NCBI GenBank assembly: GCA_022450595.1
Contig: JAKUPT010000011.1
Span: forward strand, 16,458-58,539
Source of the DNA: Bdellovibrionales bacterium
GTDB taxonomy: Bacteria > Bdellovibrionota > Bdellovibrionia > Bdellovibrionales > UBA1609
DNA: 42,082 bases
Direction of reading: 5' to 3'
The first letter of the stretch is position 1. Each line of letters starts with the position of its first letter. The notes under the pieces are model-generated. The model was given only the letters and a program-made list of their open reading frames with translations, had not been told where the DNA came from and did no database searches. The position numbers were made by a program, and so were the translations under genes. Positions 1 through 16,881 of this stretch are shown one piece after another.

Positions 1-1
1 G

Positions 2-1948
2 GTTATCAGTGAAAACTACGCAAGACTTAGAGACGAGGGCCTAAGCCAACTAGATGCCGCAGTCCAAGCCGTGCACCAATTTTGGCTCCCTATTACAGCC
101 ACAGCTTTTACAACCATTGCGGCCTTTGTGCCTATGCTTGTGACAAAAGGCGTGATGGGTGAGTTTATTAAATGGATTCCAATTGTTGTGACCTTCACAC
201 TTGTTGTGTGTTTGTTTGAAAGCTTCATTTTACTCCCTGCAAGACTTAGGTTCACTATAAGAGACAAAACTTTAAATAAAAAAACTAAATCTAAAAAACC
301 AAAGTTTCAGTGGTTTCAGTGGATACAAAACAAGTTTGAAGGCTTTATGAATTTCAGCCTTCGTCATCGCTACATTGTAAGTGTGTTTATCACTATGATT
401 ATGATCTTTAGCTTTGTGCTGGCCAAATATGGAAACCGCTTCGAGCTTTTTCCCAAAGAAAACACTGAGTTTTACATTGCCCGTTTTGAAGCCCCCATTG
501 AAACCCCTTTGGCCAGAACTAAAAAAGTGGCGCAAGATTTGGCCAAGCAGTCTTATAAATTATTAGGTGACACTAATGTGAAGTACATTATTAGCAGATC
601 CGGTGTGCAACAAATGGGCGGCAATGATCCTCAAGCTAAAAATGGCGATTATGTGGGAATGCTAATTATTGTTGTCCCTCCAGACCGAGCTCGAGAGCTT
701 GAAACAGAATGGGTGCTTGATAAACTTCGAACCATTAAAGATGACAGGCTCACCAACTTGTCCTTTGAGGCTCAAAGAAATGGCCCTCCTGTGGGCTACC
801 CTATTACCATCACTTTTAGATCTTCTAATTATCAAAAAATGCGTGAGCTTATAAATAAAATGAAAGATAAGTTCCGCCAAGTCGATGGAGTTTTAGACAT
901 TAACGACGATGAAATTGTTGGAGGACCTGAATACAATATTCAGATCAATGAAGAGCAGCTCTCTAGTTTAAATCTCTCCACTCAAGCCGTGGGGATGGCG
1001 TTAAGAACCGCCCTACAAGGCAGCATTGCCTCAGAGCTGAGTTTAAACAACAAAGAGTTTGATTTAAGAATTCGCTATGATGAAAAAGACCGAGAAACTG
1101 TCAGTGCTCTAAAAAACACCACGGTGCTCACCAACTCCGGCACTGGAGCACGACTGATTCCTATATTTAACATTGCAAATATCGAACAGGTCTCAGGCCC
1201 CTCTGTCAGAAAGCGTTTTGACTTTCAAAGAGCCATTACACTGACTGGAAGTGTGGTGCCAGAGAAAATCACCTCGGTGCAAGCCAATCAAATGGCCAGT
1301 CAGTGGTTAAAAACTGACTTTAAAGATTATGCCTCGGAGGTCACATGGAAGTTTGGCGGGGAAGAAGAAAATACCAAAGAGTCTGTGCAGTCTTTGTTTC
1401 AAGCTTTAGTATTAGCTTTTTTAGGAATTTTTGTAATCTTAATCTTTTTATTCAGAAGCTACTCCGTGCCGTTTTTGATCTTATCCTCTATTCCTTTAGG
1501 ATTGGTGGGTGTGTTTTCTGCTTTCTTTTTACACCAAAAGCCACTGAGCTTTTTTGCTCTTATTGGAATACTGGGTCTTGCAGGAGTTGTGGTGAACGCA
1601 GCCATTGTTCTAGTGAGTTACATAGAAGAGCTAAAAATGACCACCTCCTTGAACCTCAAACAGGTGCTAGCCAAAGCCTCTGCGGACCGGTTAAGAGCCG
1701 TGCTGATCACAAGCCTTACCACTGTTGGGGGCCTTATGCCCACCGCCTATGGCATTGGGGGCTCTGATCCCATCTTAGTTCCTATGACTTTAGCTATGGC
1801 CTGGGGTCTTGTCAGCGGGACGTTGCTGACTCTTATCTGGATTCCTTGTGGTTATATGATACTTGAAGATATTTTTTCATCAAAATTACTAAATCGCTTT
1901 ACCGGCTCTATGACAGAGCCTATGGTAGACAATAACGAGGGGGCATAA
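2..1948 (+). CDS. RND-family efflux pump permease, 5'-truncated by window edge
   Basis: The reading frame is open from base 2, so the gene starts before the window; the GTG at 71 is internal. The visible 648 residues are the end of an inner-membrane RND (AcrB/hydrophobe-amphiphile type) proton-driven exporter. A transmembrane block comes first, then a large periplasmic porter domain. A C-terminal set of membrane helices follows, with the family's ALIGILGLAGVVVNAAIVLV-like run and the DPILVPMTLAMAWGLVSG stretch near the end. The stop is separated by one base from the ATG of the next gene, a small lipoprotein, so the two are probably translationally coupled. Its membrane-fusion and outer-membrane partners would lie upstream, outside the window. 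Substrate cannot be told from the sequence; it is not the CusA type, since it lacks the GAMVDAAIVVVEN motif. Confidence 0.9.
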   Translation, partial: VISENYARLRDEGLSQLDAAVQAVHQFWLPITATAFTTIAAFVPMLVTKGVMGEFIKWIPIVVTFTLVVCLFESFILLPARLRFTIRDKTLNKKTKSKKPKFQWFQWIQNKFEGFMNFSLRHRYIVSVFITMIMIFSFVLAKYGNRFELFPKENTEFYIARFEAPIETPLARTKKVAQDLAKQSYKLLGDTNVKYIISRSGVQQMGGNDPQAKNGDYVGMLIIVVPPDRARELETEWVLDKLRTIKDDRLTNLSFEAQRNGPPVGYPITITFRSSNYQKMRELINKMKDKFRQVDGVLDINDDEIVGGPEYNIQINEEQLSSLNLSTQAVGMALRTALQGSIASELSLNNKEFDLRIRYDEKDRETVSALKNTTVLTNSGTGARLIPIFNIANIEQVSGPSVRKRFDFQRAITLTGSVVPEKITSVQANQMASQWLKTDFKDYASEVTWKFGGEEENTKESVQSLFQALVLAFLGIFVILIFLFRSYSVPFLILSSIPLGLVGVFSAFFLHQKPLSFFALIGILGLAGVVVNAAIVLVSYIEELKMTTSLNLKQVLAKASADRLRAVLITSLTTVGGLMPTAYGIGGSDPILVPMTLAMAWGLVSGTLLTLIWIPCGYMILEDIFSSKLLNRFTGSMTEPMVDNNEGA

Positions 1949-3739: not shown

Positions 3740-3816
3740 TTATTTAAGCTCCCTTTCTTTCCAAATGGCATAAATTGCAGGGAGACTAAAGTCACTAGTG
3801 ATAAATATAAAGTAAA
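3740..3816 (-). pseudogene. C-terminal relic of a second cusA gene
   Basis: On the minus strand these bases translate to a tail ending LPAIYAIWKERELK followed by TAA. It matches the C-terminus of the nearby CusA (YPAIFAIWKERSLPTD) in both sequence and position. Upstream of this tail the match fades within about ten codons (ITSDFS against TSFLLELLV) and there is no open frame, so only the last 20-25 codons survive. It lies between copB and ndh, at the downstream edge of the copper island. Most simply, a second cusA copy once followed copB and was deleted. DNA similarity to bases 8205-8250 is also plain by eye. Confidence 0.7.
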
Positions 3817-3880
3817 TACAAATATTTACGATCTAAATTATGACTAAAGATTCGAACATACAGTGATAACACAAGCTACT

Positions 3881-5929
3881 TTAAATTTTAGCATTTATTT
3901 TAGACTTTAATAACTGGGCATTGATAGCCACAATTACTGTGCTTAAACTCATAAATATTGCACCAACAGCAGGATCTAAAACAAAATTGGCCTTATAAAG
4001 AACTCCAGCGGCTAATGGAATTGCAACAACGTTATATCCTGTGGCCCAAATTAGATTTTGTATCATTTTGTTGTAAGTTGCTTTTCCAAAAAGAATCAGC
4101 TTTAAAATATCTTGTGGGTTACTATTAACTAAAATAATATCTGCGGTTTCTGCAGCTACATCTGTTCCTGATCCAACAGCAATTCCAACATCCGCTTGTG
4201 CTAGTGCTGGAGCATCGTTAACACCATCACCTGTCATAGATACAAACTCCCCATTTGCTTGGAGTTTTTTTACTATGTCTACTTTTTGATGAGGAAGAAC
4301 TTCAGAGTAGTAGCCATCTAAGCCAAGTTTATCGGCAACAGCTTTTGCGACTTTTTCATTGTCACCAGTTGCCATCTTCACTTTTATACCATTATCTCTG
4401 AACTTTTTTACTGCCTCAAAAGACTCTTCTCTAATTTCATCAGAAAGTGCAATAAATCCAGATAGCTCATTATCAATAAGAATAAAAACAACAGTTTCAG
4501 CATTGTCAGAATAAGCAGATTCTGGGATAGAAATATTTTTATCTTTTAAATAACCAGGACTGACAACTTTTACATCATGACCTTCAACAACAGCTTCAAC
4601 ACCCTTTCCTGTGATGGCATTAAATTTCTCAGCCTTTGGAACATTCAGATTTTTTTCCTTAGCCTTTTTTACAATACCAACAGCAATTGGGTGTTCTGAG
4701 CTTTGCTCTAAAGCAGCTGCGTACCTCAAAAGTTTAGTTTCATCAATTGAGTTTTGTGATGTCACTTCAATTCTTGTTACCCCAAAAATTCCTTTTGTGA
4801 GAGTTCCGGTTTTATCAAAAACTATAGTCGTTATAAGGCGAGAGTTTTCAAAAGCGGTACGATTACGAATCAATAAACCATTCTGTGCAGAAAGCGCCGT
4901 TGAAATCGCCACAACAAGAGGAACGGCTAGTCCTAAGGCATGAGGACAAGAAATCACCATAACAGTCACCATTCGTTCAATGGAAAAGTTCATCGAGGCT
5001 CCTAATAATAACCATATTGATAAAGTACCAAGACCAGCTGAAACAGCTATATAGGTCAGCCATTTAGCTGCACGATCAGCCAAGTGCTGTGACTTCGATT
5101 TCGCTTTTTGAGCTTCTTGAACCATGTTTATCACTTTTGTCAAATAGCTATCTTTACCTGTATGAACTACTTTTACATAAAGAGATCCATTTCCATTTAT
5201 TGAGCCACCTATAACTTTATTTCCCTTTGCTTTTTTAACAGGTTTACTTTCACCAGTAAGCATACTTTCATTCAAATAACTCTCACCATCTTGAACAGTT
5301 CCATCGGCTGGGACCTTCTCTCCTGGCTTAATTAAAATAATGTCATCTTTATTTAGATCTTCTAATTTTATATCTTCAATATTTCCATCAATAATTCGAT
5401 GAGCTTCTGAGGGCATCATACTAACCAGAAGTTCAAGTGCTTTTGAAGCTCCTAATACTGACTTCATCTCAATCCAGTGACCGAGCAACATAATGTCGAT
5501 CAATGTAACAAGCTCCCAAAAGAAATCTTGACCAGGAAAGCCAAATATCACAGCTGTACTAAAAACATAAGCCACGGTGATTGCAAGAGCTATAAGAGTC
5601 ATCATACCCGGTGATCTCTTAACCAGTTCATTATAAAAACCTTTAAGAAAAGGCCAGCCACCATAAAAGAAAGCTACTGTAGACAAGGTAAATAAAATAG
5701 CACCCTCACCTTTGAATTCAATTTTTATACCTAGCCAATGCTGAATCATGTCGGAAAGAATTAAAATTGGAAGGGTAAGAATTAAAGATACCAAAAATCG
5801 TTTCTTAAAATCCTCTATCATCATTCGATGATGATTATGCTTACCATGACCATGATCAGAACTAGAATGACTTCCATTATTGTCATTATGTTGTTCATGC
5901 TTTTTATTTATATTTTTTTTATTTTTCAC
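3881..5929 (-). CDS. copB: copper-translocating P-type ATPase, CopB type
   Basis: 682-residue P1B ATPase that would export copper or silver from cytoplasm to periplasm using ATP. It has no N-terminal HMA CxxC domain; instead it has a His-rich tail (DHGHGKHNHH, residues 25-34). The actuator motif LTGES is at 224-228. The transmembrane metal site is CPH (328-330) rather than CPC, which defines the CopB/P1B-3 subgroup. The phosphorylation site DKTGTLT is at 372-378 and the hinge TGDGVNDAPA near the C-terminal third. The length is normal. It is the last gene of the island, 24 bases downstream of the APC permease, so probably in one transcript. CPH pumps have been linked to Cu(II) or Ag transport; which ion applies here cannot be decided from sequence. 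Confidence 0.93.
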   Translation of the reverse strand: MKNKKNINKKHEQHNDNNGSHSSSDHGHGKHNHHRMMIEDFKKRFLVSLILTLPILILSDMIQHWLGIKIEFKGEGAILFTLSTVAFFYGGWPFLKGFYNELVKRSPGMMTLIALAITVAYVFSTAVIFGFPGQDFFWELVTLIDIMLLGHWIEMKSVLGASKALELLVSMMPSEAHRIIDGNIEDIKLEDLNKDDIILIKPGEKVPADGTVQDGESYLNESMLTGESKPVKKAKGNKVIGGSINGNGSLYVKVVHTGKDSYLTKVINMVQEAQKAKSKSQHLADRAAKWLTYIAVSAGLGTLSIWLLLGASMNFSIERMVTVMVISCPHALGLAVPLVVAISTALSAQNGLLIRNRTAFENSRLITTIVFDKTGTLTKGIFGVTRIEVTSQNSIDETKLLRYAAALEQSSEHPIAVGIVKKAKEKNLNVPKAEKFNAITGKGVEAVVEGHDVKVVSPGYLKDKNISIPESAYSDNAETVVFILIDNELSGFIALSDEIREESFEAVKKFRDNGIKVKMATGDNEKVAKAVADKLGLDGYYSEVLPHQKVDIVKKLQANGEFVSMTGDGVNDAPALAQADVGIAVGSGTDVAAETADIILVNSNPQDILKLILFGKATYNKMIQNLIWATGYNVVAIPLAAGVLYKANFVLDPAVGAIFMSLSTVIVAINAQLLKSKINAKI

Positions 5930-5953
5930 AATAACACTCCTAATTGATACTTA

Positions 5954-7264
5954 TCACATTCTTGAGTGAGCTTTGATAAACCATTTTTCACAAGAAAAAA
6001 TAATAGCAATTCCACTAATAGAAACCCAAATAACTAATGGGTCACTCTGTAATTTAATCCACAGAAACGCTCCCAGTACAATAACATCTAATAGAATTGC
6101 AGTTACTAAAATAATAGGTTTGGCATCAATATCTTCTTTTAAACTTTTGAACACCCCCCAATGGATTGCAATATCCATAAGTATATAAAAAATAGCTCCA
6201 AGCGAAGCAATGCGACTAAGGTCAAAAAATACAGTTAATAAAATCGCAAGAACAATAGTATAAACAAGTGTATGCCTTTGAATGTTACCGGGCATTCCAA
6301 AATGACTATGTGGAACAAGATTCATATCTGTTAACATAGCCAACATTCTAGAAACAGCAAATACACTTGCAATTACTCCTGAAACAGTCGCAACAATTGC
6401 AAAACCTACTGTTGCCCAAAGACCAAAATTACCAAAAGCAGGTTTGGAGGCCTCAGCTAGTGAGTAGTCTTTAGCTTTAATAATTTCAGAAATACTGAGG
6501 TTTCCCGCTACAGCGAATGCAACTAACATATAAATAATAAAACAAATACTGACGGAATATATAATTGATCGACCGATATTTTTTGTTGGATTTTTAATTT
6601 CACTTCCACTATTTGTTATTGTTGTAAAGCCTTTGTAGGCCAAAATCCCAAGGGCAGTGGCCCCTAAAAATCCTGAAAAACTGGTATCATTGGGGGCAAC
6701 AGAAAGACTTTCAAAACTCAGACCTGCTGCCCAGAGACCTCCTCCGGCTAATATGAGCAATCCAGCAATTTTAATAAAGGCCATTATAAAGGAAAAGCTT
6801 TGTATAAATTTATTGCTTAAAATATTGATTAGAAATGCAAAGATCAGAAGGGCAACACCTAAAGCTGGCACAAGCCATGAACTTTTGTCCATACTAAAGA
6901 GTTGCAATGTATAAGCACCAAAAGTTCTCGCTACCAAACTTTCATTTATTACCATAGAAAAATACATAAGAAGAGCACAAGCACCAGTCATCATAGATTT
7001 CCCATATGCTTTCTCTAGAAACATAGCAATGCCACCAGCCGAAGGATACTTACTTGCCATTTTTATATAGGAATATGTGCTAAATCCCGTAACTATAGCT
7101 GCGGATAAAAAAGCTAGTGGGAACCATTCTCTTGCCAGTTCTGCCATCTGACCGGTTAGAGCAAAAATACCGGCACCAATCATCACCCCAGTGCCCATAG
7201 AGATACTTCCCCACAGAGTCAGACTATTTTTTTTTGTAATTGGTTGCTCTTGATTTATGGACAC
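5954..7264 (-). CDS. APC-family amino acid/polyamine permease
   Basis: 436 residues with about 12 hydrophobic helices. The N-terminal signature LWGSISMGTGVMIGAGIFAL is typical of amino acid-polyamine-organocation (APC) secondary transporters, and the TM6-like GFTTITNSGSEIKNPTKNIG loop is also characteristic. The substrate is unknown. Its place inside a copper/silver operon, between the cupredoxin gene (93 bases upstream) and copB (24 bases downstream), is unusual. It may import an amino acid needed under metal stress, or move a metal-amino acid complex, but both ideas are inference. The family call is firm; the role in metal handling is not. Confidence 0.85.
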   Translation of the reverse strand: MSINQEQPITKKNSLTLWGSISMGTGVMIGAGIFALTGQMAELAREWFPLAFLSAAIVTGFSTYSYIKMASKYPSAGGIAMFLEKAYGKSMMTGACALLMYFSMVINESLVARTFGAYTLQLFSMDKSSWLVPALGVALLIFAFLINILSNKFIQSFSFIMAFIKIAGLLILAGGGLWAAGLSFESLSVAPNDTSFSGFLGATALGILAYKGFTTITNSGSEIKNPTKNIGRSIIYSVSICFIIYMLVAFAVAGNLSISEIIKAKDYSLAEASKPAFGNFGLWATVGFAIVATVSGVIASVFAVSRMLAMLTDMNLVPHSHFGMPGNIQRHTLVYTIVLAILLTVFFDLSRIASLGAIFYILMDIAIHWGVFKSLKEDIDAKPIILVTAILLDVIVLGAFLWIKLQSDPLVIWVSISGIAIIFSCEKWFIKAHSRM

Positions 7265-7357
7265 TATGTTTCATCTTTACTAACCTATTCGAAAAAATAT
7301 TAAGTTTTATTATTGTTCTCATATTTTATTCTTCAATTAAATTTCCGTGGCAAACTA

Positions 7358-7681
7358 CTATTTAACAAAAATAACACCGCCCAACATCTGTTTCATTGCA
7401 CATCCAAAGCTAATTTCTCCTTTCTTATTAGGGGTAAAAACAATAGACACGGTTTTATTAAACGGAAGGTCTTTTTCAATGTTTTCAGAGGGAACTGTGA
7501 TTTTCTTGGCACATGTTGTTTTCACTTTTCGGGTAATATTTAAAATGAGCTTTTCTCCAGTATTAACTTCAATTCTTGAGGGTTCAAAACCTTTTTTTGT
7601 AACCTCCACATTATAGCTTTGACTAGCAATAGCCGCTGTAGATATTCCAAACAGTAAAATTATTAGGGTGAGTGATTTCAT
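7358..7681 (-). CDS. exported cupredoxin-like copper protein
   Basis: 107 residues with signal peptide MKSLTLIILLFGISTAAIAS and a mature part of about 88 residues. It matches the small cupredoxin (EfeO/CopC-like beta-sandwich) pattern: EVTKKGFEPSRIEVNTGEKL, then TTCAKKITVPS, then a C-terminal FGCAMKQMLGG. The two cysteines and the methionines of the last motif are the likely copper ligands. The domain makes up the whole mature protein, so it is probably a periplasmic copper carrier or redox partner. Its ATG overlaps the stop of the upstream cytochrome gene by four bases (ATGA), which implies coupled translation and a shared job. Confidence 0.85.
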   Translation of the reverse strand: MKSLTLIILLFGISTAAIASQSYNVEVTKKGFEPSRIEVNTGEKLILNITRKVKTTCAKKITVPSENIEKDLPFNKTVSIVFTPNKKGEISFGCAMKQMLGGVIFVK

Positions 7682-8181
7682 TTATTTCCTCCATTGTTTA
7701 GTATCTGTAAGCTTTTATCAATCCACTTGTTCAATACCATTTTTTCTTTTTTCGTTAGTTTTGAATTCCAATGCATCATTTTGTACTGCCATGGTGGCAT
7801 CGAGTCTTCTCTAACAGTCTTTTTTATTGCTTGTAAATCTTCTTTGGGACTGCCGTGTCCTCCAAAAGGAAATCCGTTAGTCATATCTAAATGCTTTTTT
7901 GCTTCAGACATATCTTGATTCATCATATGCTTTATCCCTGGCAAAACATAGTACCAAGGCTTTTTACTACCAAGACCATGGCAATCAAGGCATTTTTTTT
8001 CAAATATTGGTTTTATGTTTGAAAAATATTTATTATTTATCTCTTCCAGCTTATACATTTGAGTCGTAGATACCACTAAGGACTCATTGTTTGATTTTGA
8101 ATGATCCTCACCCTTATGGGCGTACAAACTAAAATGAAATAAAAGAAATACTAATAGAATATGTTTGAAAAATATGTTCAT
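7678..8181 (-). CDS. exported small c-type cytochrome (haem-binding domain)
   Basis: 167 residues with an N-terminal signal peptide (hydrophobic core through residue 20, then AHKGEDHS). One covalent haem site, CLDCH, is at residues 64-68 (IFEKKCLDCHGLG). Downstream residues include the HLDMTNGFPFGGHGSP segment and MPPWQYKMMH, which may supply the distal Met or His. It resembles the haem-binding domain proteins found beside Cus-type pumps. The start overlaps the cusA stop (ATGA) and the stop overlaps the cupredoxin start, so cusA, the cytochrome and the cupredoxin form one tightly coupled unit. A role in periplasmic copper oxidation or electron disposal is inference. Confidence 0.83.
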   Translation of the reverse strand: MNIFFKHILLVFLLFHFSLYAHKGEDHSKSNNESLVVSTTQMYKLEEINNKYFSNIKPIFEKKCLDCHGLGSKKPWYYVLPGIKHMMNQDMSEAKKHLDMTNGFPFGGHGSPKEDLQAIKKTVREDSMPPWQYKMMHWNSKLTKKEKMVLNKWIDKSLQILNNGGNK

Positions 8182-9218
8182 ACTACGTCACTCCTTTTGT
8201 CTGTAGGAAGAGACCTTTCTTTCCATATGGCAAAAATAGCTGGGTACACTAAAAGTTCCAGTAAAAATGATGTTAAAATTCCACCAACCATTGGAGCTGC
8301 CATTCGCTTCATCACATCGGCTCCACTGCTTGCAGAGCTTGCCAGCATAATAGGTAGAAGAGCCATAAAGGTTGTAAGAACTGTCATCATTTTTGGACGA
8401 ATACGTTTAACCGCACCAAAGTGAATAGCCTCTTTAAGATCAGCAAAAGAATTTAACTTTCCCTCTTTCTTTCGTTTCTCATAGGCCAAGTCTAAGTATA
8501 GAAGCATATAAATTGCCATTTCAGCGTCTATACCTAACAGGGCAATAAGACCCACCCATACAGCAATACTTATGTTGTATCCAAGAATATAAAGTAGCCA
8601 AACGGCCCCAATAGCCGAAAATGGAATTGCGAGTAAAACAATAGAAGTTTTCATCGCAGATTTTGTGTTGAGATAAATCAATACAATTATAATTAGAAAA
8701 GTTATGGGCAGCACAACTTTTAACTTTTCTTTTACCCGACCCATACTTTGATATTGGCCACTCCAACTAAGTGAATAACCTGAAGGAAGGTCAAGTTTTT
8801 CGTTGACTGTTTTTTTAGCTTTCTTTACATAACCACCAACATCCGACTCTTCTAAATCTACGTATACATATCCTGTTAAAAGTCCATTATCATTTCTAAT
8901 CATTCCAGGACCATTGAGCATTTGAATAGTCGCGACTTCAGAAAGTGGCACCTGATAACCTTTAGGTGAATCTATTAATATTCTTCTAATATGTTCTTTA
9001 TTTTGTCTAAAGGCTCTGGCATAGCGGACATTTACAGAGTATCGCTCTCTACCTTCAATAGCGGTTGTAACATTCCGTCCGCCAAGTGCCTTTGCAACAG
9101 AATCATGCGCTTGCTTTATAGAAATACCATGGCGAGCTAGAGCTTCGCGGTTAAAGTTAAAGTCTAAAAAGTACCCACCTGTTACTCGCTCGGCAAACAC
9201 ACTTCGAGTGCCTTTCAC
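8178..9218 (-). CDS. cusA: CusA heavy-metal RND permease, C-terminal part after in-frame stop
   Basis: 346 residues if translation restarts at the GTG at 9218. The frame is identical to the upstream part (both boundaries differ by a multiple of three), and the 14 codons between the TAA and this GTG still encode CusA-like sequence (IARIGLEIEKIISK). The protein covers the second half of the periplasmic domain (SVFAERVTGGYFLDFNFNRE) and the last six membrane helices (LLGIDAEMAIYMLLYLDLA), ending YPAIFAIWKERSLPTD. A restart from this GTG would lack the first membrane domain and could not form a pump alone. The gene is annotated as one broken cusA; see the entry at 9261-11444. Confidence 0.85.
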   Translation of the reverse strand: MKGTRSVFAERVTGGYFLDFNFNREALARHGISIKQAHDSVAKALGGRNVTTAIEGRERYSVNVRYARAFRQNKEHIRRILIDSPKGYQVPLSEVATIQMLNGPGMIRNDNGLLTGYVYVDLEESDVGGYVKKAKKTVNEKLDLPSGYSLSWSGQYQSMGRVKEKLKVVLPITFLIIIVLIYLNTKSAMKTSIVLLAIPFSAIGAVWLLYILGYNISIAVWVGLIALLGIDAEMAIYMLLYLDLAYEKRKKEGKLNSFADLKEAIHFGAVKRIRPKMMTVLTTFMALLPIMLASSASSGADVMKRMAAPMVGGILTSFLLELLVYPAIFAIWKERSLPTDKRSDVV

Positions 9219-9260
9219 TTTGCTTATGATTTTTTCAATTTCAAGCCCAATACGTGCTAT

Positions 9261-11444
9261 TTATTCAAGATTGTCACCAGATATTTTTATCCCAATAGGA
9301 GTTCGAATTCCAGTTGTTAGCATATCAATTCTTCCCTTAATTGGTAGAGTCCATGCATTTGTAACCCCAGGAAAGTCCATCTTCTTATTCATATCTTGAA
9401 TTAACTCTTCCCAAGTCATATAACTTGGAGTTATCCACTCAAAGGGCCAGTGCAAAAACTCTGGCAAGTCAGAATACCAACGATCTACTTTACGCCATTG
9501 CCTTTGATCTTTTAGAACTACAACAGTTTCCATCATTGAAAGCGGGGCTGGGTCAGTGGCTGTATTTGCCCTTCCTGCTTTTCCATGAACACTCTCAACT
9601 TCAGGAAAACTTTTTAAGATCTTGTCTTGTTTTTGTAGAAGGTTTTGCGCCTCTGTTACGGATATGCCAGGCATTGTCGTTGGCATATAAAGTATTGTCC
9701 CCTCATTTAAAGGAGGCATAAATTCTGACCCCAATTTAAGGTATACGGGAACTGTTGCTAGCATCATAACCACAGCAATGCCGATTACTTTTTTTCTGTT
9801 ATCAACAACCCAATCAACAGCTGGTCCATAAACTTTAAATAAAAATCGGCTTATAGGATGTTCATCTTCACTTTTCATTTTAGAAGCAAAAAGAAAGTTC
9901 ATTAATTTCGTCCACCAAGTGGGACCACTTTTAAACTCTCTTTTTTTGGTAAATATAATTAACAAAGCTGGTACAAGCGTTATTGATAATACCGACGCCA
10001 CAAGCATTGATAATGTTTTTGTATAAGCAAGTGGCTTAAATAACCTCCCCTCTTGAGCTTCAAGAGCAAATATTGGAAGAAATGATACGGCAATAACAAG
10101 CAATGAATAAAAACTTGCCGGCCCAACTTCTTTAATTGCTGAAATAATCACCTCATCAAGCTTTTCTTTCCCACCAGACTCTTTCCACTCCTCCATTTTT
10201 TTATGACAATTCTCCACAACAACAATGGCAGCATCCACCATGGCCCCAATAGCTATAGCAATTCCTCCTAAAGACATTATATTGGCAGAAACGTCCATTA
10301 AATACATAAGGATAAAAGAAATAACTATTGCTGTAGGCAAAGTAATGATTGGAACAAGTGCACTTGGTATATGTAATAAAAAGATAATTATAACTAATGC
10401 AACAACAATCATTTCAAGTACTAACTCATGAGTTAGAGTCTGGATAGAGCGCTTTATAAGATCACTTCTATTATAGGTTTCAACAATTTCAACACCATCG
10501 GGCAGTGAATTTTTAAGATCCTCAAGCTTTCTTTCAACTCGTTCAATAACCGCATTGGCATTTTCACCAAATCGCATAACGACGATTCCGCCAACAACAT
10601 CACCTAAACCATTGAGATCAGCAACACCTCGCCTCATTTCTGGCCCTTGTATTACATTAGCTACATTTTTCACATAAATAGGCACACCATTTTTATTTAC
10701 AGCAATAACAATGTTTTCAATGTCTTGTCGGTTTTTAGCGTAACCTCTGAGGCGCACCATATATTCCGTGCCGGAAAACTCAATGACTCGCGCACCTGTT
10801 TCTGAATTACCTTGGCGTATAGCTTCACTGACTTTCGACAAAGGAATGTTATAAGCACGAAGTGATTCTGGATTTACATGAACTTGATATTGATTTTCAA
10901 ATCCACCGAAAGAAGCCACCTCGGCAACACCTGGTACGGCTTGTAATTGATAACGCAAAAACCAATCTTGAAATGACCTAAGATCAGCTAGCGTGTGTTT
11001 TCCGGAGGTGTCTTTGAGTGCATATTGATAGACCCACCCCACACCAGTAGCGTCCGGCCCAAGTTCTGTGTTGGAGCCCTCAGGAAGCTGAGGGATGATT
11101 TTAGACAAATATTCTAACACTCTTGATCTTGCCCAATAGATATCTGTATCATCTTCAAAAATCACATAAACATAGGACGCACCAAAAGTGGAAAGTCCTC
11201 GTATGTCTTTTACTTTTGGTACGCCTAATAAACTCGTTACAATGGGATAGGTCACTTGATCTTCAATAATATCTGGACTGACATTCCACGTTGTGTAGAC
11301 AATAACTTGAGTATCAGAAAGGTCAGGAGTAGCATCGATCGGAATTTTGTTCATGCTAAACCAACCAGCAACTAATGCTACAGTAACGGCTAAAAGTGTT
11401 ATGAATCTATTTTTTGCACAAAACTCAATAGTTTTAATTATCAT
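9261..11444 (-). CDS. cusA: CusA heavy-metal RND permease, N-terminal part ending at an in-frame TAA
   Basis: 727 residues of the inner-membrane pump of a tripartite Cu(I)/Ag(I) exporter. Hallmarks of the heavy-metal RND subfamily are present: the start FCAKNRFITLLAVTV, the IPIDATPDLSDTQVIVYTTW block, GAMVDAAIVVVENCHKK in TM4, and FALEAQEGRLFKPLAYTKT. It stops at TAA (9263-9261) in KISGDNLE-stop, in the middle of the periplasmic domain. The same frame then continues with CusA sequence to 8178. The whole frame is 1089 codons including both stops, the usual CusA length, so the only defect is one nonsense codon, most simply GAA to TAA. It lies 12 bases after cusB. Confidence 0.9.
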   Translation of the reverse strand: MIIKTIEFCAKNRFITLLAVTVALVAGWFSMNKIPIDATPDLSDTQVIVYTTWNVSPDIIEDQVTYPIVTSLLGVPKVKDIRGLSTFGASYVYVIFEDDTDIYWARSRVLEYLSKIIPQLPEGSNTELGPDATGVGWVYQYALKDTSGKHTLADLRSFQDWFLRYQLQAVPGVAEVASFGGFENQYQVHVNPESLRAYNIPLSKVSEAIRQGNSETGARVIEFSGTEYMVRLRGYAKNRQDIENIVIAVNKNGVPIYVKNVANVIQGPEMRRGVADLNGLGDVVGGIVVMRFGENANAVIERVERKLEDLKNSLPDGVEIVETYNRSDLIKRSIQTLTHELVLEMIVVALVIIIFLLHIPSALVPIITLPTAIVISFILMYLMDVSANIMSLGGIAIAIGAMVDAAIVVVENCHKKMEEWKESGGKEKLDEVIISAIKEVGPASFYSLLVIAVSFLPIFALEAQEGRLFKPLAYTKTLSMLVASVLSITLVPALLIIFTKKREFKSGPTWWTKLMNFLFASKMKSEDEHPISRFLFKVYGPAVDWVVDNRKKVIGIAVVMMLATVPVYLKLGSEFMPPLNEGTILYMPTTMPGISVTEAQNLLQKQDKILKSFPEVESVHGKAGRANTATDPAPLSMMETVVVLKDQRQWRKVDRWYSDLPEFLHWPFEWITPSYMTWEELIQDMNKKMDFPGVTNAWTLPIKGRIDMLTTGIRTPIGIKISGDNLE

Positions 11445-11456
11445 TTTATACCCCTC

Positions 11457-12572
11457 TTAGTGGTCATGCTCTGCTGGTGAAGCCGATCCACCCTGTATTA
11501 CGGACTTTAAGCGAGACTCAGAATCAATTAGAAAATTAGCACCAACAACAACCACATCACCCTCATTAACGTCTCCGACAATAGCTGCCTCCGATTCAGT
11601 CTCCAAAACAACTTGAACCTTTTTAGGCTCAAATTTTCCTTTCTCTCTTCTTAAAAAGATATAAGTATCCACACCTGTATCCATTACAGATTCTATAGAA
11701 ACTGCTAAGTGACGTCCGACTGGAGCAAATATCGAGACATTGACATAGGATTCGGGTCGAATCGCAACATCATTTTTTAATAACTTAATTCGTACTTTTG
11801 CAGTTCGTGTTTCGGGGTTGATGACCTGATCAACAGAGATAACCTTTCCTGGAAGTGTTTTTCCTTGTAGAAAGTTTGCAGAGATTTGGGCGGATTGCCC
11901 CTCTTTAATATATGGAAGATCAACTTCAAACACATCTGCATAAATTATGTTATCTTGTCCACCAACTATAAGGCCTTCTGACTGAAAGCCTTTTTTTGTG
12001 AGGCTTGCAATTTGATCATCTGCCAATCCAAGAACTTTAAGGCGAATTTTAGAAGACCGAATCATTTGTCTTGAATTTTCCCTAACATCAGCAATGGAAG
12101 AGTCTTTTACACGATTCCATTGCCTTAATGCTTCAAGGTACTCACTTTGGGCTGTATATAGCTCTGGATCAAATGCAATTCGACCAGGTGCTTTAATTGT
12201 TTTAAATAATTTCTTCTCTTCAACTCTCTCAAGTTTTACACCTATCATTTGTTGCTTATCTAATGATAGTTTTAATGAAGTTCGTCCAACGGGCAGCTCT
12301 CCTTCACTTTCTGCTGAGCCTTGATGATCCATATCTTCATGGTCGTCCATTTTATTTGCGAGAACCAAGTCCATTCCACAAATTGGGCAAGTTCCAGGTT
12401 CGTCTGAAGTGATTTGCGGATGCATAGGACAAATATACATTGTAGCTTTTGATTCTTTATTATGTTCATGGTTTGAGTGATCTATTTTATTCTGGGAGTT
12501 CCACCAAAACAGCCCACCACCCAAGACAACGATTATAATAGCACTAATTAAAATTATAATTTTATTTCTCAT
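11457..12572 (-). CDS. cusB: CusB-type periplasmic adaptor with heavy-metal-binding domain
   Basis: 371 residues: an N-terminal membrane anchor or signal (IIILISAIIIVVLGGGLFWW), a His-rich linker (DHSNHEHNKE), then the heavy-metal-binding motif CPMHPQITSDEPGTCPICGM (about residues 48-67) and an HlyD/membrane-fusion body. The C-terminal beta-barrel region ends with a His tail (AEHDH). It bridges CusA to CusC and passes Cu/Ag to CusA. Its start overlaps the cusC end by 11 bases and cusA follows after 12 bases, in the canonical C-B-A order. Length is within the family range. Confidence 0.93.
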   Translation of the reverse strand: MRNKIIILISAIIIVVLGGGLFWWNSQNKIDHSNHEHNKESKATMYICPMHPQITSDEPGTCPICGMDLVLANKMDDHEDMDHQGSAESEGELPVGRTSLKLSLDKQQMIGVKLERVEEKKLFKTIKAPGRIAFDPELYTAQSEYLEALRQWNRVKDSSIADVRENSRQMIRSSKIRLKVLGLADDQIASLTKKGFQSEGLIVGGQDNIIYADVFEVDLPYIKEGQSAQISANFLQGKTLPGKVISVDQVINPETRTAKVRIKLLKNDVAIRPESYVNVSIFAPVGRHLAVSIESVMDTGVDTYIFLRREKGKFEPKKVQVVLETESEAAIVGDVNEGDVVVVGANFLIDSESRLKSVIQGGSASPAEHDH

Positions 12573-13869
12573 TTTTAACCTCGCTAACTGAATCTAAATT
12601 TGACACGGAAAATCCAAGCTCTCTTTCTAAAATGCATAAGGCGGAGACGTATTGTCTTAGTGACTGATAATAATCGGTCTTAATACGATAAAGAGAGCGC
12701 TCACTATCAAGCAAATCTAGAAAAGAAGTTTTATCTGCCTGATAGGCTGAGCGGCTAGAGTTATAAGAGCCTTGTGCCTGTGGAATAAGACTTGTTTGGT
12801 AAATTTCTAATGTCTTAACACCTGTGCTTACTCTTCCTTTTAAATCTTTGATATCAGCAATGAGCTTAAGTTTAGTGTCTTTCACCTTATACTCTTGAGC
12901 CATTTTTTTTGCCGAAGCAGCTGAGGCTTCATAGCCTGTCTTCCAAAACCAAAGAGGAATTGTGACTCCTATTGTAAGAATATTAGAGTCAATAGGTTCA
13001 CCAGAGATTCGCTGTTGATACTGAATTTGAAAATCAGGAGCAAATTCCCATTTAGCCAAGGTGCTTTTATATTCGGTTTCCTTAAGTTTATAATTTTCTG
13101 CTCTAAGAACTGGTGAATTTTCCTTTAATTGGTTTAAAAGTTTCGAATTATCACCTTGAATTTTTTCTTTAAAAAATTTTGGTGGAGATAACTCTAATTG
13201 GCTTATTTCAATATTTTTTAAAGAGGGAGAGTTCACGACAGATTTTAATTGGTCCTGCAGTGCCTGCTCCTCTTGTTTTAACCGAATAAGATTTAATTCT
13301 AATTGAGTTAACTCAAAATGAGCTTTCATAGAGTCACCTTGAGGAGACTTTCCAGCAGAATACTTTTTTTCAGCAACACGAGCAAATTCATTTACAGATT
13401 CAATGTTTGCTTTAGTGAGTTGAATAACCTTCTGTGCAGAGTAGATTGCATAATAAAGTGTTATAACCTGTTGTCTTACTTCAAATTTTTTTTCATTAAG
13501 TCTGGAGCGAAAGCTATCAGCCTTACTTTGCTGTGCTTTTGCCTGGTAAATATACTTTGTTGGAAATTTTATTTTCTGTGAAATCGTTCCATATTGAGTT
13601 TTTAAGCCTCTATTAAGCTCTGAAACTCCCACCATTGGGTTATCCAAAGTGGCTTGAGAGGCAATTAAAGAGTGCTCTGCGCTCCACTCATAATGTTTTT
13701 CCTGTACTCCAGGATTATTTTTATAGGATAGTTGCAAAAGCTCATTGAGTGATATAGTCCCCTCGGCATTGCTAATTGATGGAAAAAGCACTGCAAACAC
13801 TATCATGACTTTAGACAGTGATTGCCCATAGGAATTTGAGGTAAAAAACCAGTTTAAAATATAAAGCAT
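12562..13869 (-). CDS. cusC: CusC/TolC-type outer-membrane efflux protein
   Basis: An outer-membrane efflux channel (OEP family): two repeats of long helical segments (RSRLNEKKFEVRQQVITLYYAIYSAQ and RSAYQADKTSFLDLLDSERSLY regions). I chose the ATG at 13869 (435 residues), which is preceded by AAGGTG at good spacing. The longer TTG frame from 13908 has no ribosome binding site. A third candidate, the ATG at 13806, would give a compact signal peptide (MIVFAVLFPSISNA) but has only a weak site. The 16-bp dyad at 13895-13910 lies just upstream on the mRNA. Supplies the outer-membrane exit for CusBA. Confidence 0.85.
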   Translation of the reverse strand: MLYILNWFFTSNSYGQSLSKVMIVFAVLFPSISNAEGTISLNELLQLSYKNNPGVQEKHYEWSAEHSLIASQATLDNPMVGVSELNRGLKTQYGTISQKIKFPTKYIYQAKAQQSKADSFRSRLNEKKFEVRQQVITLYYAIYSAQKVIQLTKANIESVNEFARVAEKKYSAGKSPQGDSMKAHFELTQLELNLIRLKQEEQALQDQLKSVVNSPSLKNIEISQLELSPPKFFKEKIQGDNSKLLNQLKENSPVLRAENYKLKETEYKSTLAKWEFAPDFQIQYQQRISGEPIDSNILTIGVTIPLWFWKTGYEASAASAKKMAQEYKVKDTKLKLIADIKDLKGRVSTGVKTLEIYQTSLIPQAQGSYNSSRSAYQADKTSFLDLLDSERSLYRIKTDYYQSLRQYVSALCILERELGFSVSNLDSVSEVKNEK

Positions 13870-13894
13870 AATTAACACCTTTTCATTAAGATCG

Positions 13895-13910
13895 TCTTGC
13901 CTAAGCAAGA
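13895..13910 (-). promoter_or_regulatory. dyad TCTTGC-CTAA-GCAAGA upstream of cusC
   Basis: A perfect 6-4-6 inverted repeat between the Cys-rich gene and cusC, about 10 bases upstream of the cusC ribosome binding site. It could be a small RNA hairpin setting the cusC level, or a metal-regulator operator. TTGC/GCAA half sites recall copper-responsive MerR-type boxes, but no matching -35/-10 pair surrounds it, so the operator reading is weak. Confidence 0.35.
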
Positions 13911-13943
13911 TGGAATAGAAAAAATAATAATGGTGTTAATTGA

Positions 13944-14351
13944 TCAAATTAAAAAAGAATGGGTTTTAATTGTATGTTTTAAAGGAAGAACAGCCAGGTT
14001 CCAATGTGGTAAAGGCTTATAATCTCCCACATCTGTCTTAGGCTCAAAACCAAAATACATAGATATAATTATTTTGTCAGTGAAATCATTTTTTTTAGTT
14101 TCATGTTGATTTTGTTGTTCAAAGCTCAACTTTTTAGATCCAAGCAAACCTGAATTGCAAATAGACATATCAAAACATTGATTGGATTCTGGCTTTTGTT
14201 CCGATTGTTTTTGTTGATCATGACAAGGCGATGGAGAGTTTGACTCAACCAACTCCACGTCACTGTTCCAATCACAATCCAACACACACAGGCTTGATTG
14301 AACCTGAAAATAACTGAAGATTGCTACAAAGAAAAACAATAAAAACTTCAT
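13944..14351 (-). CDS. Cys-rich exported protein heading the copper operon
   Basis: 135 residues from the ATG at 14351; a longer TTG frame from 14369 is less likely. The N-terminus MKFLLFFFVAIFSYFQVQSS is a signal peptide. The mature part is hydrophilic with five cysteines clustered early (LCVLDCD, SPCHDQQ, QCFDMSIC) next to His and Met, a plausible soft-metal site, and then a C-terminal PLPHWNLAVLPLKH segment. No family is recognised with confidence; small proteins of this kind often lead cus operons. It lies 74 bases upstream of cusC on the same strand. A role as periplasmic copper sensor or chaperone is inference. Confidence 0.7.
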   Translation of the reverse strand: MKFLLFFFVAIFSYFQVQSSLCVLDCDWNSDVELVESNSPSPCHDQQKQSEQKPESNQCFDMSICNSGLLGSKKLSFEQQNQHETKKNDFTDKIIISMYFGFEPKTDVGDYKPLPHWNLAVLPLKHTIKTHSFLI

Positions 14352-14647
14352 AAGACTATACTGCCTCAAAATTTATTAAAAATCTAGCCCATATATATGG
14401 CTAATGATCGGTAAATTTGATGGTAGACTTAAATCTGAGACAATACGGCACGTCTTTTGTCGGTCATAATATTGCAACTATATATAAATATTAACTCATG
14501 TAGGTTTTTTATTTCCTACAATAGTTAGTAAGTAATTGTTTTTGCTGCACATAATTTCATAAGCATTTTTTATGAAAATGACAATTTATGTCAGCTTGAA
14601 TCGATATTTACACAATTTTTAAGCATTTATGAGATAAAGGAAGTGCC
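14352..14647. other. intergenic region between copper operon and a divergent secreted gene
   Basis: About 300 AT-rich bases that should hold both divergent promoters. Three inverted repeats are visible: TAGCC-N9-GGCTA (14385-14403), TGTAGG-N10-CCTACA (14499-14520), and TTTCATAA with TTATGAAA around 14557-14580. No confident -35/-10 pair could be fixed on either strand. The dyad at 14385-14403, about 35 bases upstream of the Cys-rich gene, is the best candidate for a metal-responsive operator. No coding potential is seen. Confidence 0.4.
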
Positions 14648-15073
14648 ATGAGAGCTATAGTTTTATTTTTTATAATTTGTTTATCAACTACCTCTTTTGC
14701 AGAGGTTTCGATTGATGATATTAAGATTAATACAAAACTAGAATTAAAAGCACCAATAAATATGAAGCTTATGTGTGATTTAGAGACCAGATTCCCACAA
14801 TATATTACAAAATTAAGAGTCATCCCACAAAGCTATGCCAAGGAAGAAAGTCCATTGATACCAAACAGTATCGTTGTAGACGACTTAACTTTTGAAAAGG
14901 GAACTGTTTCAGATATTGCCCCCCAATATATTGTTACTATGTATTTAGATACACCAAAGCTTGCAAACCACCTATACACTGATGGCCATAAAAACTGTCG
15001 ATTGTTTTACAAAAAAGTAAAAAATTATGAAAGCATTGATAGTTTACCAGAGTTTAATTTACTAAAACATTAA
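14648..15073 (+). CDS. small secreted protein of unknown function
   Basis: 141 residues with a clear signal peptide (MRAIVLFFIICLSTTSFA, cleavage before EVS). The mature part has two cysteines (MKLMCDLE and HKNCRLFY), possibly one disulfide, and no recognised domain. The ATG follows AAAGGAAG at good spacing. A diverged copy of its last 30 or so codons is found at 16269-16377 beside the intact merR gene. This gene is itself followed by a merR 3' fragment, so the pair 'this gene + merR tail' exists twice. That suggests this gene is a normal neighbour of merR in related genomes. Function unknown. Confidence 0.75.
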   Translation: MRAIVLFFIICLSTTSFAEVSIDDIKINTKLELKAPINMKLMCDLETRFPQYITKLRVIPQSYAKEESPLIPNSIVVDDLTFEKGTVSDIAPQYIVTMYLDTPKLANHLYTDGHKNCRLFYKKVKNYESIDSLPEFNLLKH

Positions 15074-15081
15074 ATCAATAG

Positions 15082-15255
15082 TTATAGTATATCTGTTTTT
15101 ATTTTTTGAACGCGCTCGATAAGACTCTCAACACGGGTATGAATGTCTTTAATTTGCCTCACACCTTCTTTAAACTTTCGAACATTTTTACCGTCTTTTT
15201 TTAAACGCTTTAAAGCGCCATGTTCTCCATCAATAGAGAAACGATCTAACAGTTA
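15082..15255 (-). pseudogene. 3' fragment of a second merR-family gene
   Basis: On the minus strand this translates to DRFSIDGEHGALKRLKKDG and onward, ending ERVQKIKTDIL and TAA. The intact MerR at 16375-16881 has DRFSIDGARAALKRLKKDG and ends ERVQKLKSDIL. Over bases 15108-15245 against 16401-16538 I count 21 differences in 139, about 85% identity, with the frame and stop preserved. Similarity ends near 15245-15255, just before the IS3 remnant. The divergence is too great for a fresh duplication; a related but different genome is a likelier source. Confidence 0.85.
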
Positions 15256-15272
15256 TTCAGGTAAAGATAATC

Positions 15273-15345
15273 TCACTTGAAGGTTTTAACAAAAGCCTTA
15301 GAGATACCATTACACTCAGGGCTGTAAGTTCTAGTAAAGAAAGAT
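15273..15345 (-). mobile_element. IS3-family transposase (OrfB) C-terminal remnant
   Basis: The minus-strand translation reads AKSFFTRTYSPECNGISKAF then VKTFK and a stop (TGA at 15275-15273). This matches the conserved end of IS3-group integrase-type transposases (pattern SPxxNGxxEAFVKTFK), including the catalytic-region Asn-Gly. An in-frame TAG lies just upstream (near 15346) and no terminal repeats are evident, so only a short dead fragment remains. It sits exactly where the truncated merR copy loses similarity. The remaining bases 15346-15558 are very AT-rich and show no recognisable content. Confidence 0.7.
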
Positions 15346-15558
15346 TTAGCCTAAGGACTTTATTCATAATTGCCGAATTCGAAAGAATTTATAAAAAATA
15401 TACAGTTTTTTAAAATTAAAATTCATGTAATATTGTTATATATATTCAAATATTATATGAAAAACTTATATTACAAATCTATTTTATTTTAAATTTATGA
15501 GATTTCCCTGAATTATAGTAATAACTACTTTAGCGTTTACATAACTTAAAGGAATCTT

Positions 15559-16158
15559 ATGAATACTAATAAAAAATTAAATGTTTTTAATTTTATTTTT
15601 CTAGTTTTTGCTTTCCTAGTAAGTGGAAATTTATGGGCCTTAACGAGATATGAAATCACAACAAACGAGCAAAGTGGTTTGCTAACTGCTGGATTTATAC
15701 CTCTTCAGAACTATCGTATTTCTGGGCATCTAGATATAGACCAACAACTTATAAAAGATGTACAATTGAAAATTGAACTTTTAAAAGACGTTTATTTTAA
15801 TCCTGTAAGAATACCCGTAAAAGCAGAAATTTTAGATTGCAATACAGAGTGCTTGGGCTTTATTGATTATGAGTTTGGACAAATAGAGTTTAATGGAGGC
15901 ATTCCTGTTTTAGGAGATGAAGTTACTAATACTCTTATAGAAAGTTTAAAAGGAAAGCCCCATTTACAACTTCGATTAAGCGGAAATTGTTATCCTGAAA
16001 ATGACAAAAATTTTAAGGACAGAATAACTGAAGGTGAAACATTAATTTGTGAACTTTTATATGATCAATCAACAATAGGTCAGTCTTCGGGTCCTAAATT
16101 TTTTCTAATGGGCAAGAAATACCCTTTACTCATTATAAAGTTAACTTCAAAAATTTGA
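15559..16158 (+). CDS. secreted protein of unknown function
   Basis: 199 residues. A hydrophobic stretch (FNFIFLVFAFLVSGNLWA) after a short basic start forms a signal peptide, with cleavage before LTRYEITT. The mature part looks beta-rich and has four cysteines (LDCNTECLGF, SGNCYPE, LICELLY), so one or two disulfides are possible. The ATG has a moderate site (AAAGGAATC) upstream. It lies alone between the two copies of the duplicated segment. No family recognised; base use is as AT-rich as the neighbouring scar zone. Confidence 0.7.
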   Translation: MNTNKKLNVFNFIFLVFAFLVSGNLWALTRYEITTNEQSGLLTAGFIPLQNYRISGHLDIDQQLIKDVQLKIELLKDVYFNPVRIPVKAEILDCNTECLGFIDYEFGQIEFNGGIPVLGDEVTNTLIESLKGKPHLQLRLSGNCYPENDKNFKDRITEGETLICELLYDQSTIGQSSGPKFFLMGKKYPLLIIKLTSKI

Positions 16159-16268
16159 ATGCATTTATGAATAAATACTTAAGTGCTGCTGATTGCCTAA
16201 TCTTATGGATATGTAGAAGTATTTAAATAAGTTCTAAAATTACTTTTTCAATAACTTGCTGCCAAAGT

Positions 16269-16377
16269 ACTGATGGTCATAAAAACTGTCGGTTGTTTTA
16301 TAAAAAAGTTCAAACTTATAAAGATTTAGAAAGCCTACCTGAGTTTAAGCTTGCAAATAATTGGAATGAATCAGTCA
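16269..16377 (+). pseudogene. 3' fragment of a homologue of the 14648-15073 gene
   Basis: The plus strand reads TDGHKNCRLFYKKVQTYKDL, then ESLPEFKLANNW, against TDGHKNCRLFYKKVKNYESI, then DSLPEFNLLKH at the end of the 141-residue secreted protein. There is no start codon, signal peptide or upstream similarity, so this is a truncated remnant. It lies directly before the convergent merR stop, in the same relative position that the intact gene holds to the merR fragment at 15082. The offset between the two copies is 1291-1293 bases on both sides, so they are parts of one duplicated block. Confidence 0.8.
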
Positions 16378-16881
16378 TAAAATATCAGATTTTAATTTTT
16401 GAACGCGCTCAATAAGGTTTTCCATACGAGTATGAATGTCTTTGATTTGACTCACACCTTCTTTGATTTTTCGGACATTTTTGCCGTCTTTCTTTAAACG
16501 CTTTAAAGCAGCACGGGCTCCATCAATAGAAAAACGATCACGGTATAAAAGCTTTTTAATAATTAAAACGTACTCTACATCTTTTTTTGAGTACATACGT
16601 TGATTGTGCTTTGATTTTTTAGGCTTCAACTCATCAAATTCTGATTCCCAATATCTTAACACATAAGTCTTAACACCACTCACCTGTGCCACATCGCCAA
16701 TTTTAAAGGCCATTTTATCTGGAATGTTTGTGATTTCATTTAATAGCTCTTCATCGAGCAACATTGGCGGCTCTGAGGGTGATCCATCCATCGTAAGTTG
16801 AGTTGAGTTTGGCTGAGTAGATTCAACTTGCTGATCGTTTGAATTTTGTGGGTCGGTTTCAAACATATCTTGTTGTTGCAT
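16375..16881 (-). CDS. MerR-family transcriptional regulator beside ihfA
   Basis: 168 residues: a Gln/Asn-rich N-terminal tail (1-50), then a MerR winged helix-turn-helix (FKIGDVAQVSGVKTYVLRYW, about 59-78, followed by NQRMYSKKDV), and a C-terminal coiled coil (KIKEGVSQIKDIHTRMENL). There is no metal-binding cysteine set, so it is not a copper sensor despite the nearby island. It starts two bases after the ihfA stop; the pheS-pheT-ihfA-merR order is widespread in deltaproteobacteria-like genomes. The target is unknown. Its 3' half exists as a diverged fragment at 15082-15255. Confidence 0.88.
   Translation of the reverse strand: MQQQDMFETDPQNSNDQQVESTQPNSTQLTMDGSPSEPPMLLDEELLNEITNIPDKMAFKIGDVAQVSGVKTYVLRYWESEFDELKPKKSKHNQRMYSKKDVEYVLIIKKLLYRDRFSIDGARAALKRLKKDGKNVRKIKEGVSQIKDIHTRMENLIERVQKLKSDIL

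Follow-up and report, generated by a model that had tools for sequence, protein, structure and literature searches.

The locus analysed here raises the question of how two convergent neighbours, a gene for a putative secreted protein (X) and merR, came to lie side by side twice, once as an intact X followed by the 3' end of merR and once as the 3' end of X followed by an intact merR, and whether this arrangement records the arrival of the copper-resistance genes located next to it. The latter had been proposed in an earlier note, in which the arrangement was taken as the scar of the capture of a copper island.

Organization of the locus

The window, i.e. the whole stretch of 42,082 nucleotides that was analysed, corresponds to C13:16458-58539 in a draft genome of 3.06 Mb in 156 contigs. 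From left to right, the region of interest contains a copper block (minus strand), X (plus), a merR 3' fragment designated tail A (minus), a transposase fragment (minus), a second ORF designated Z (plus), a 3' fragment of X designated tail B (plus), and then merR-ihfA-pheT-pheS (minus). At the left end of the window (1-70, C13 near 16458), a few consecutive bases of an RND pump gene are undetermined in the contig (translated as XXXX).

The nearest named matches of the MerR protein are metagenome-assembled records of Bdellovibrionaceae. The pheS-pheT-ihfA-merR block is kept in most of the genera sampled, with merR closing the block. The 3' neighbour of merR varies among these genera (L076-L090), which makes this flank of merR look like a variable boundary in the order as a whole.

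A diverged direct repeat of the X and merR 3' ends

The features that make up the duplicated arrangement, together with the ORF lying between the two copies, are as follows.

14648-15073, plus strand, X: intact ORF of 141 aa, apparently with a signal peptide; the last 96 nt at its 3' end fall within R_A
14978-15246, R_A (copy A of the repeat): the 3' end of X and merR tail A, delimited by blastn and by global alignment to R_B
15082-15246, minus strand, merR tail A: headless, comprising the last 54 codons and the stop codon
15559-16158, plus strand, Z: orphan ORF of 199 aa with an apparent signal peptide, between the repeat copies
16269-16361, plus strand, X tail B: 3' remnant of another X allele, lacking both the head and the stop codon of X
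16269-16539, R_B (copy B of the repeat): X tail B and the final part of the intact merR, delimited by blastn and by global alignment
16375-16881, minus strand, merR: full-length resident ORF (MerR_1, PF13411, E=5e-18)

The reciprocal truncation described in the earlier note (intact X with a merR 3' fragment in copy A, X 3' fragment with an intact merR in copy B) was borne out, and its parts belong to one contiguous direct repeat of about 270 bp that consists of the X 3' end, a spacer and the 3' end of the convergent merR. R_A and R_B share 80.9% identity over 272 columns in blastn (E=1e-66) and 78.6% identity, with one 2-bp gap, in a gap-aware global alignment. The X part is 80% identical over 80 nt and the merR part 84% identical over 167 nt, close to the previous estimate for merR of about 85% over 139 bases. 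From start to start, the two copies are offset by 1291 in X and by 1293 in merR, agreeing with the constant 1291-1293 noted before. The merR fragment of copy A, previously placed at 15082-15255, does start at 15082, but it ends at 15246 and the further bases belong to another feature. Beyond R_A and R_B the flanks are unrelated to each other, and the repeat ends sharply on both sides. We found neither a third copy of the repeat nor a second merR or X elsewhere in the 3.06-Mb genome. This repetition is far beyond chance. The possibility that the repeat is a shared terminator was rejected, the sole terminator-like site being at chance level.

The interval between the two copies (15247-16268, 1.02 kb) contains the transposase fragment and Z only, with no integrase, element or plasmid gene. 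Z has no Pfam match, no match in the 140 other genomes of the order (E<=0.001) or in plasmids, and a single weak match in the phylum (E=2.8e-5). X likewise has no Pfam match, and searches of 141 genomes from the order, 291 from the phylum, IMG/VR and plasmids found no relative of it. Since X has no detectable relative, it can be assigned neither to an island nor to the resident chromosome, and since it has no outgroup, a resident and an incoming X allele are indistinguishable. Among the codons shared by the two X copies, the first 14 carry 4 synonymous and 0 non-synonymous changes, and the second half of the tail has a dN/dS of 0.40, indicating no strong constraint. X and Z were also considered as paralogues, which was rejected on comparing the two.

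The merR versions diverged as functional genes

The geometry of the repeat is most simply obtained by a tandem duplication of the 270-bp segment that was truncated at birth, or by template-switch repair, followed by neutral decay, because duplicating an internal segment in tandem always yields copies that lack, reciprocally, the heads of the two genes. The codons of merR speak against such an origin. Over the 54 codons compared (about 26 differences), tails A and B differ at 5, 5 and 17 sites at codon positions 1, 2 and 3, respectively, with a dS of 0.73, a dN of 0.083 and a dN/dS of 0.11, i.e. mainly by synonymous changes. Two histories were simulated: i) with tail A evolving neutrally and without its head throughout, at most 10 non-synonymous changes were obtained at P 0.0000-0.0065 across the constraints assumed, and ii) when both tails were functional, the observed pattern was ordinary (P 0.13-0.99). 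Since the differences are dominated by synonymous changes and the truncated-at-birth model is rejected, the loss of the merR head postdates functional divergence: the two versions diverged as two functional genes and one lost its head later. A recent or truncated-at-birth duplication is thus highly unlikely, and the view of the earlier note that the arrangement is not a simple recent duplication holds.

After the break, merR tail A decayed. A Gly-Ala-Arg (G-A-R) motif is near-invariant in the relatives (A in 28 of 28, R in 24 of 28), whereas tail A reads G-E-H.

Regarding the source of the second version, the merR tails were compared with those of 28 relatives, all from other genera. Twenty-four of these are closer to tail B and none (0/28) to tail A. 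The two tails share 83% protein identity with each other but at most 43% with any of the 28, and the best tail identity between any two of the relatives is 72%. These identities indicate that the second version came from the same genus or from very near it; no congener was found in the GTDB-based collections. In the relatives searched, this MerR is single-copy and located at the end of pheS-pheT-ihfA, so that a duplicate kept for long would be unusual. Since two copies occur in no sampled relative, xenology is likelier than paralogy, and we infer, from these comparisons of sequence, a foreign donor, favouring a foreign merR allele over an old paralogue.

A transposase fragment at the joint

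One further feature, absent from the previous account of this locus, was recognised at the inner edge of R_A.

15247-15361, minus strand: 115-bp inner piece of a transposase of IS3-family type (rve_3 integrase core), dead, with 3 stops

The fragment begins exactly where merR tail A stops (15247), indicating that tail A was severed at, or fused to, a dead IS fragment. It shares 82% DNA identity over 115 bp with a copy in the same genome (G000:C74:42512-42628), which lies at a contig end and matches rve_3 (PF13683, E=3.4e-14); the window fragment aligns to residues 21-58 of this copy. A second, longer homologue is present at C76. The fragment in the window is internal at both ends, and no complete IS, terminal inverted repeats or target duplication was found at the joints in the window.

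These data bear on an old duplication within the genome, in which the whole X-merR pair was duplicated in tandem, both merR genes were functional for long, and the middle (the head of merR in copy A and that of X in copy B) was then lost, with IS and Z DNA in its place. Such a history yields identical anatomy, agrees with selection on both tails during much of their divergence, and would place an IS fragment at the deletion joint, as is seen. However, two functional copies would have had to coexist up to a dS of about 0.7, and a second copy of this MerR was found in no other genome searched. We regard this history as an alternative of lower probability than the reading favoured below.

A related transposase copy spans two contig ends (the end of G000:C74 and the start of C38), which suggests that intact copies probably break the assembly. 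With the genome fragmented into 156 contigs and related IS copies at the C74 and C38 ends, the locus might also be a chimera in which contigs of two related strains were joined at a transposase repeat. The join, however, falls at a degraded fragment of 115 bp and not within an intact repeat; single-copy genes occur towards either side of contig C13 (proA in one copy, merR in one full copy); and composition is alike on both flanks. A chimera is therefore very improbable.

The copper genes lie outside the repeat

To the left of X lie the copper genes and a short gene remnant at their outer edge.

3752-3790, minus strand: remnant of a CusA-like 3' tail (PAIYAIWKERELK*), bordering the copper block on its left
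3881-14369, minus strand, copper block: P-type ATPase, amino-acid permease, haem-binding protein, CusA, CusB, CusC and a Cys-rich secreted protein

In the CusA gene of the block (8178-11444), the sequence is open in one frame except for one in-frame TAA (9261-9263), and relatives carry intact copies; the TAA is a nonsense mutation of recent origin or else an error of sequencing.

The copper block has a GC3 of 0.24-0.32, as compared with 0.38-0.43 in the left flank. Its CusA and CusB are 79-86% and 59-78% identical, respectively, to those of other genera, whereas PheT and PheS are mostly 45-54% and 58-66% identical to those of the same comparison genera. At the loci examined, the copper operon of relatives is located in other neighbourhoods, never beside merR or an X gene. 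Since the CusA and CusB identities exceed those of PheT and PheS, GC3 is distinct and the neighbourhoods differ, the block appears to have moved between lineages, and it is probably a horizontally acquired operon, separate from the scar.

The proposal that the scar marks the capture of a copper island was not supported, since the repeats enclose only the IS fragment and Z, with the copper block outside the R_A-R_B interval; no direct repeats bracketing the copper genes were found. In that model, one foreign segment (copper block, X and merR tail of copy A) was joined illegitimately to the resident X and merR of copy B by homology-facilitated illegitimate recombination, making the scar the right edge of the island; in its fuller form, a resident copper operon was replaced and its CusA tail left behind. 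The distinct GC3 and the high CusA and CusB identities agree with this model, as do the headless tails at both edges (CusA-like at 3752-3790 and X at 16269), and for effector modules it has been proposed that displacement of this kind leaves behind the 3' end of the gene that was ousted (PMC5361080). On the other hand, a copper operon lies beside X or merR in no relative examined, X is not assignable to either the island or the host, and the CusA-like tail is only about 40 nt long. We consider the model unlikely. Of the earlier suggestion that foreign DNA was taken up at the resident merR, the joining of related homologous DNA fits the data, but the copper cargo is unsupported.

The CusA-like tail is 85% identical over 40 nt to the CusA gene of the same genome and 90% identical over 39 nt to cusA of another genus (L106, E=3e-8); the left copper edge carries a separate small scar of its own. 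One joint event for the scar and the copper genes is possible, although the repeats themselves do not point to one. The whole of 3752-16539 would then be a single allelic-replacement scar, in which a relative's copper operon, X and merR tail ousted the resident copper operon with both joints illegitimate, leaving the resident CusA tail on the left and the X tail on the right; this we hold to be improbable.

Proposed integration of homologous DNA at the X/merR junction

The reading we favour, tentatively and at a little short of an even chance, is that the repeat is a worn scar, left when an X-merR segment of a close relative was captured at the convergent X/merR junction and followed by IS-linked decay. 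An incoming molecule from a close relative, carrying the 3' ends of its own X and merR, would have joined the resident X-merR locus by a single crossover of the Campbell type or by an equivalent displacement, the crossover partner being a circle or an integrating element with an internal X-merR segment. The product would be a direct repeat, with a full X and a merR tail on one side, a headless X tail and a full merR on the other, and the incoming DNA enclosed by the two. This interior may then have decayed to the 115-bp transposase piece fused to merR tail A, plus Z. The geometry of a Campbell integration, a direct repeat of the internal ends of both flanking genes around an insert, is present at the locus. 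What the sequence shows directly is the repeat with its sharp ends, the transposase fragment at the joint, the signature of selection on the merR tails and the later decay of tail A; the donor, the type of crossover, the resident X allele and the order of these events are inferences.

Three known systems offer comparisons. In Escherichia coli, prophage e14 leaves a diverged 165-bp, 54-codon duplicate of the icd 3' end (icdC) (PMC11148124). At both loci an intact gene is accompanied by a headless, diverged second copy of its last 165 bp (54 codons in both cases), with mostly synonymous changes and foreign DNA between the two. Unlike e14/icd, the X-merR repeat also takes in the 3' end of X, the convergent neighbour, retains no integrase or prophage, and shows much greater divergence between its copies (84% identity across the merR part). 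Single crossovers between a circular plasmid and the chromosome generated duplications of 109-950 bp of part of lacZ (PMC3240628); the X-merR insert is likewise flanked by a direct repeat, of about 270 bp. In the lacZ case, however, the homologous DNA was delivered by laboratory conjugation, whereas the X-merR event would be a past one whose interior has decayed to about 1 kb. In the T6SS effector/immunity arrays of Vibrio cholerae, displacement by homology-facilitated illegitimate recombination has been proposed (PMC5361080), and such a displacement would produce an identical arrangement at X-merR. There, as here, the displaced copy would keep only its 3' part, with the newly arrived gene copy lying upstream of it. 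The X-merR locus differs in having no recognisable effector/immunity pair and in that the anchor side is not identifiable.

The X-merR scar is an ordinary kind of genome scar, and because integration scars of this type are well known, the gain is local; the repeat alone does not reveal how the nearby copper-resistance genes arrived. The codon-level test distinguishes true gene divergence from simple duplication even without a close relative. Under the favoured reading, the scar would be a readable footprint of the exchange of DNA with a close relative in a genome that appears to belong to the Bdellovibrionota.
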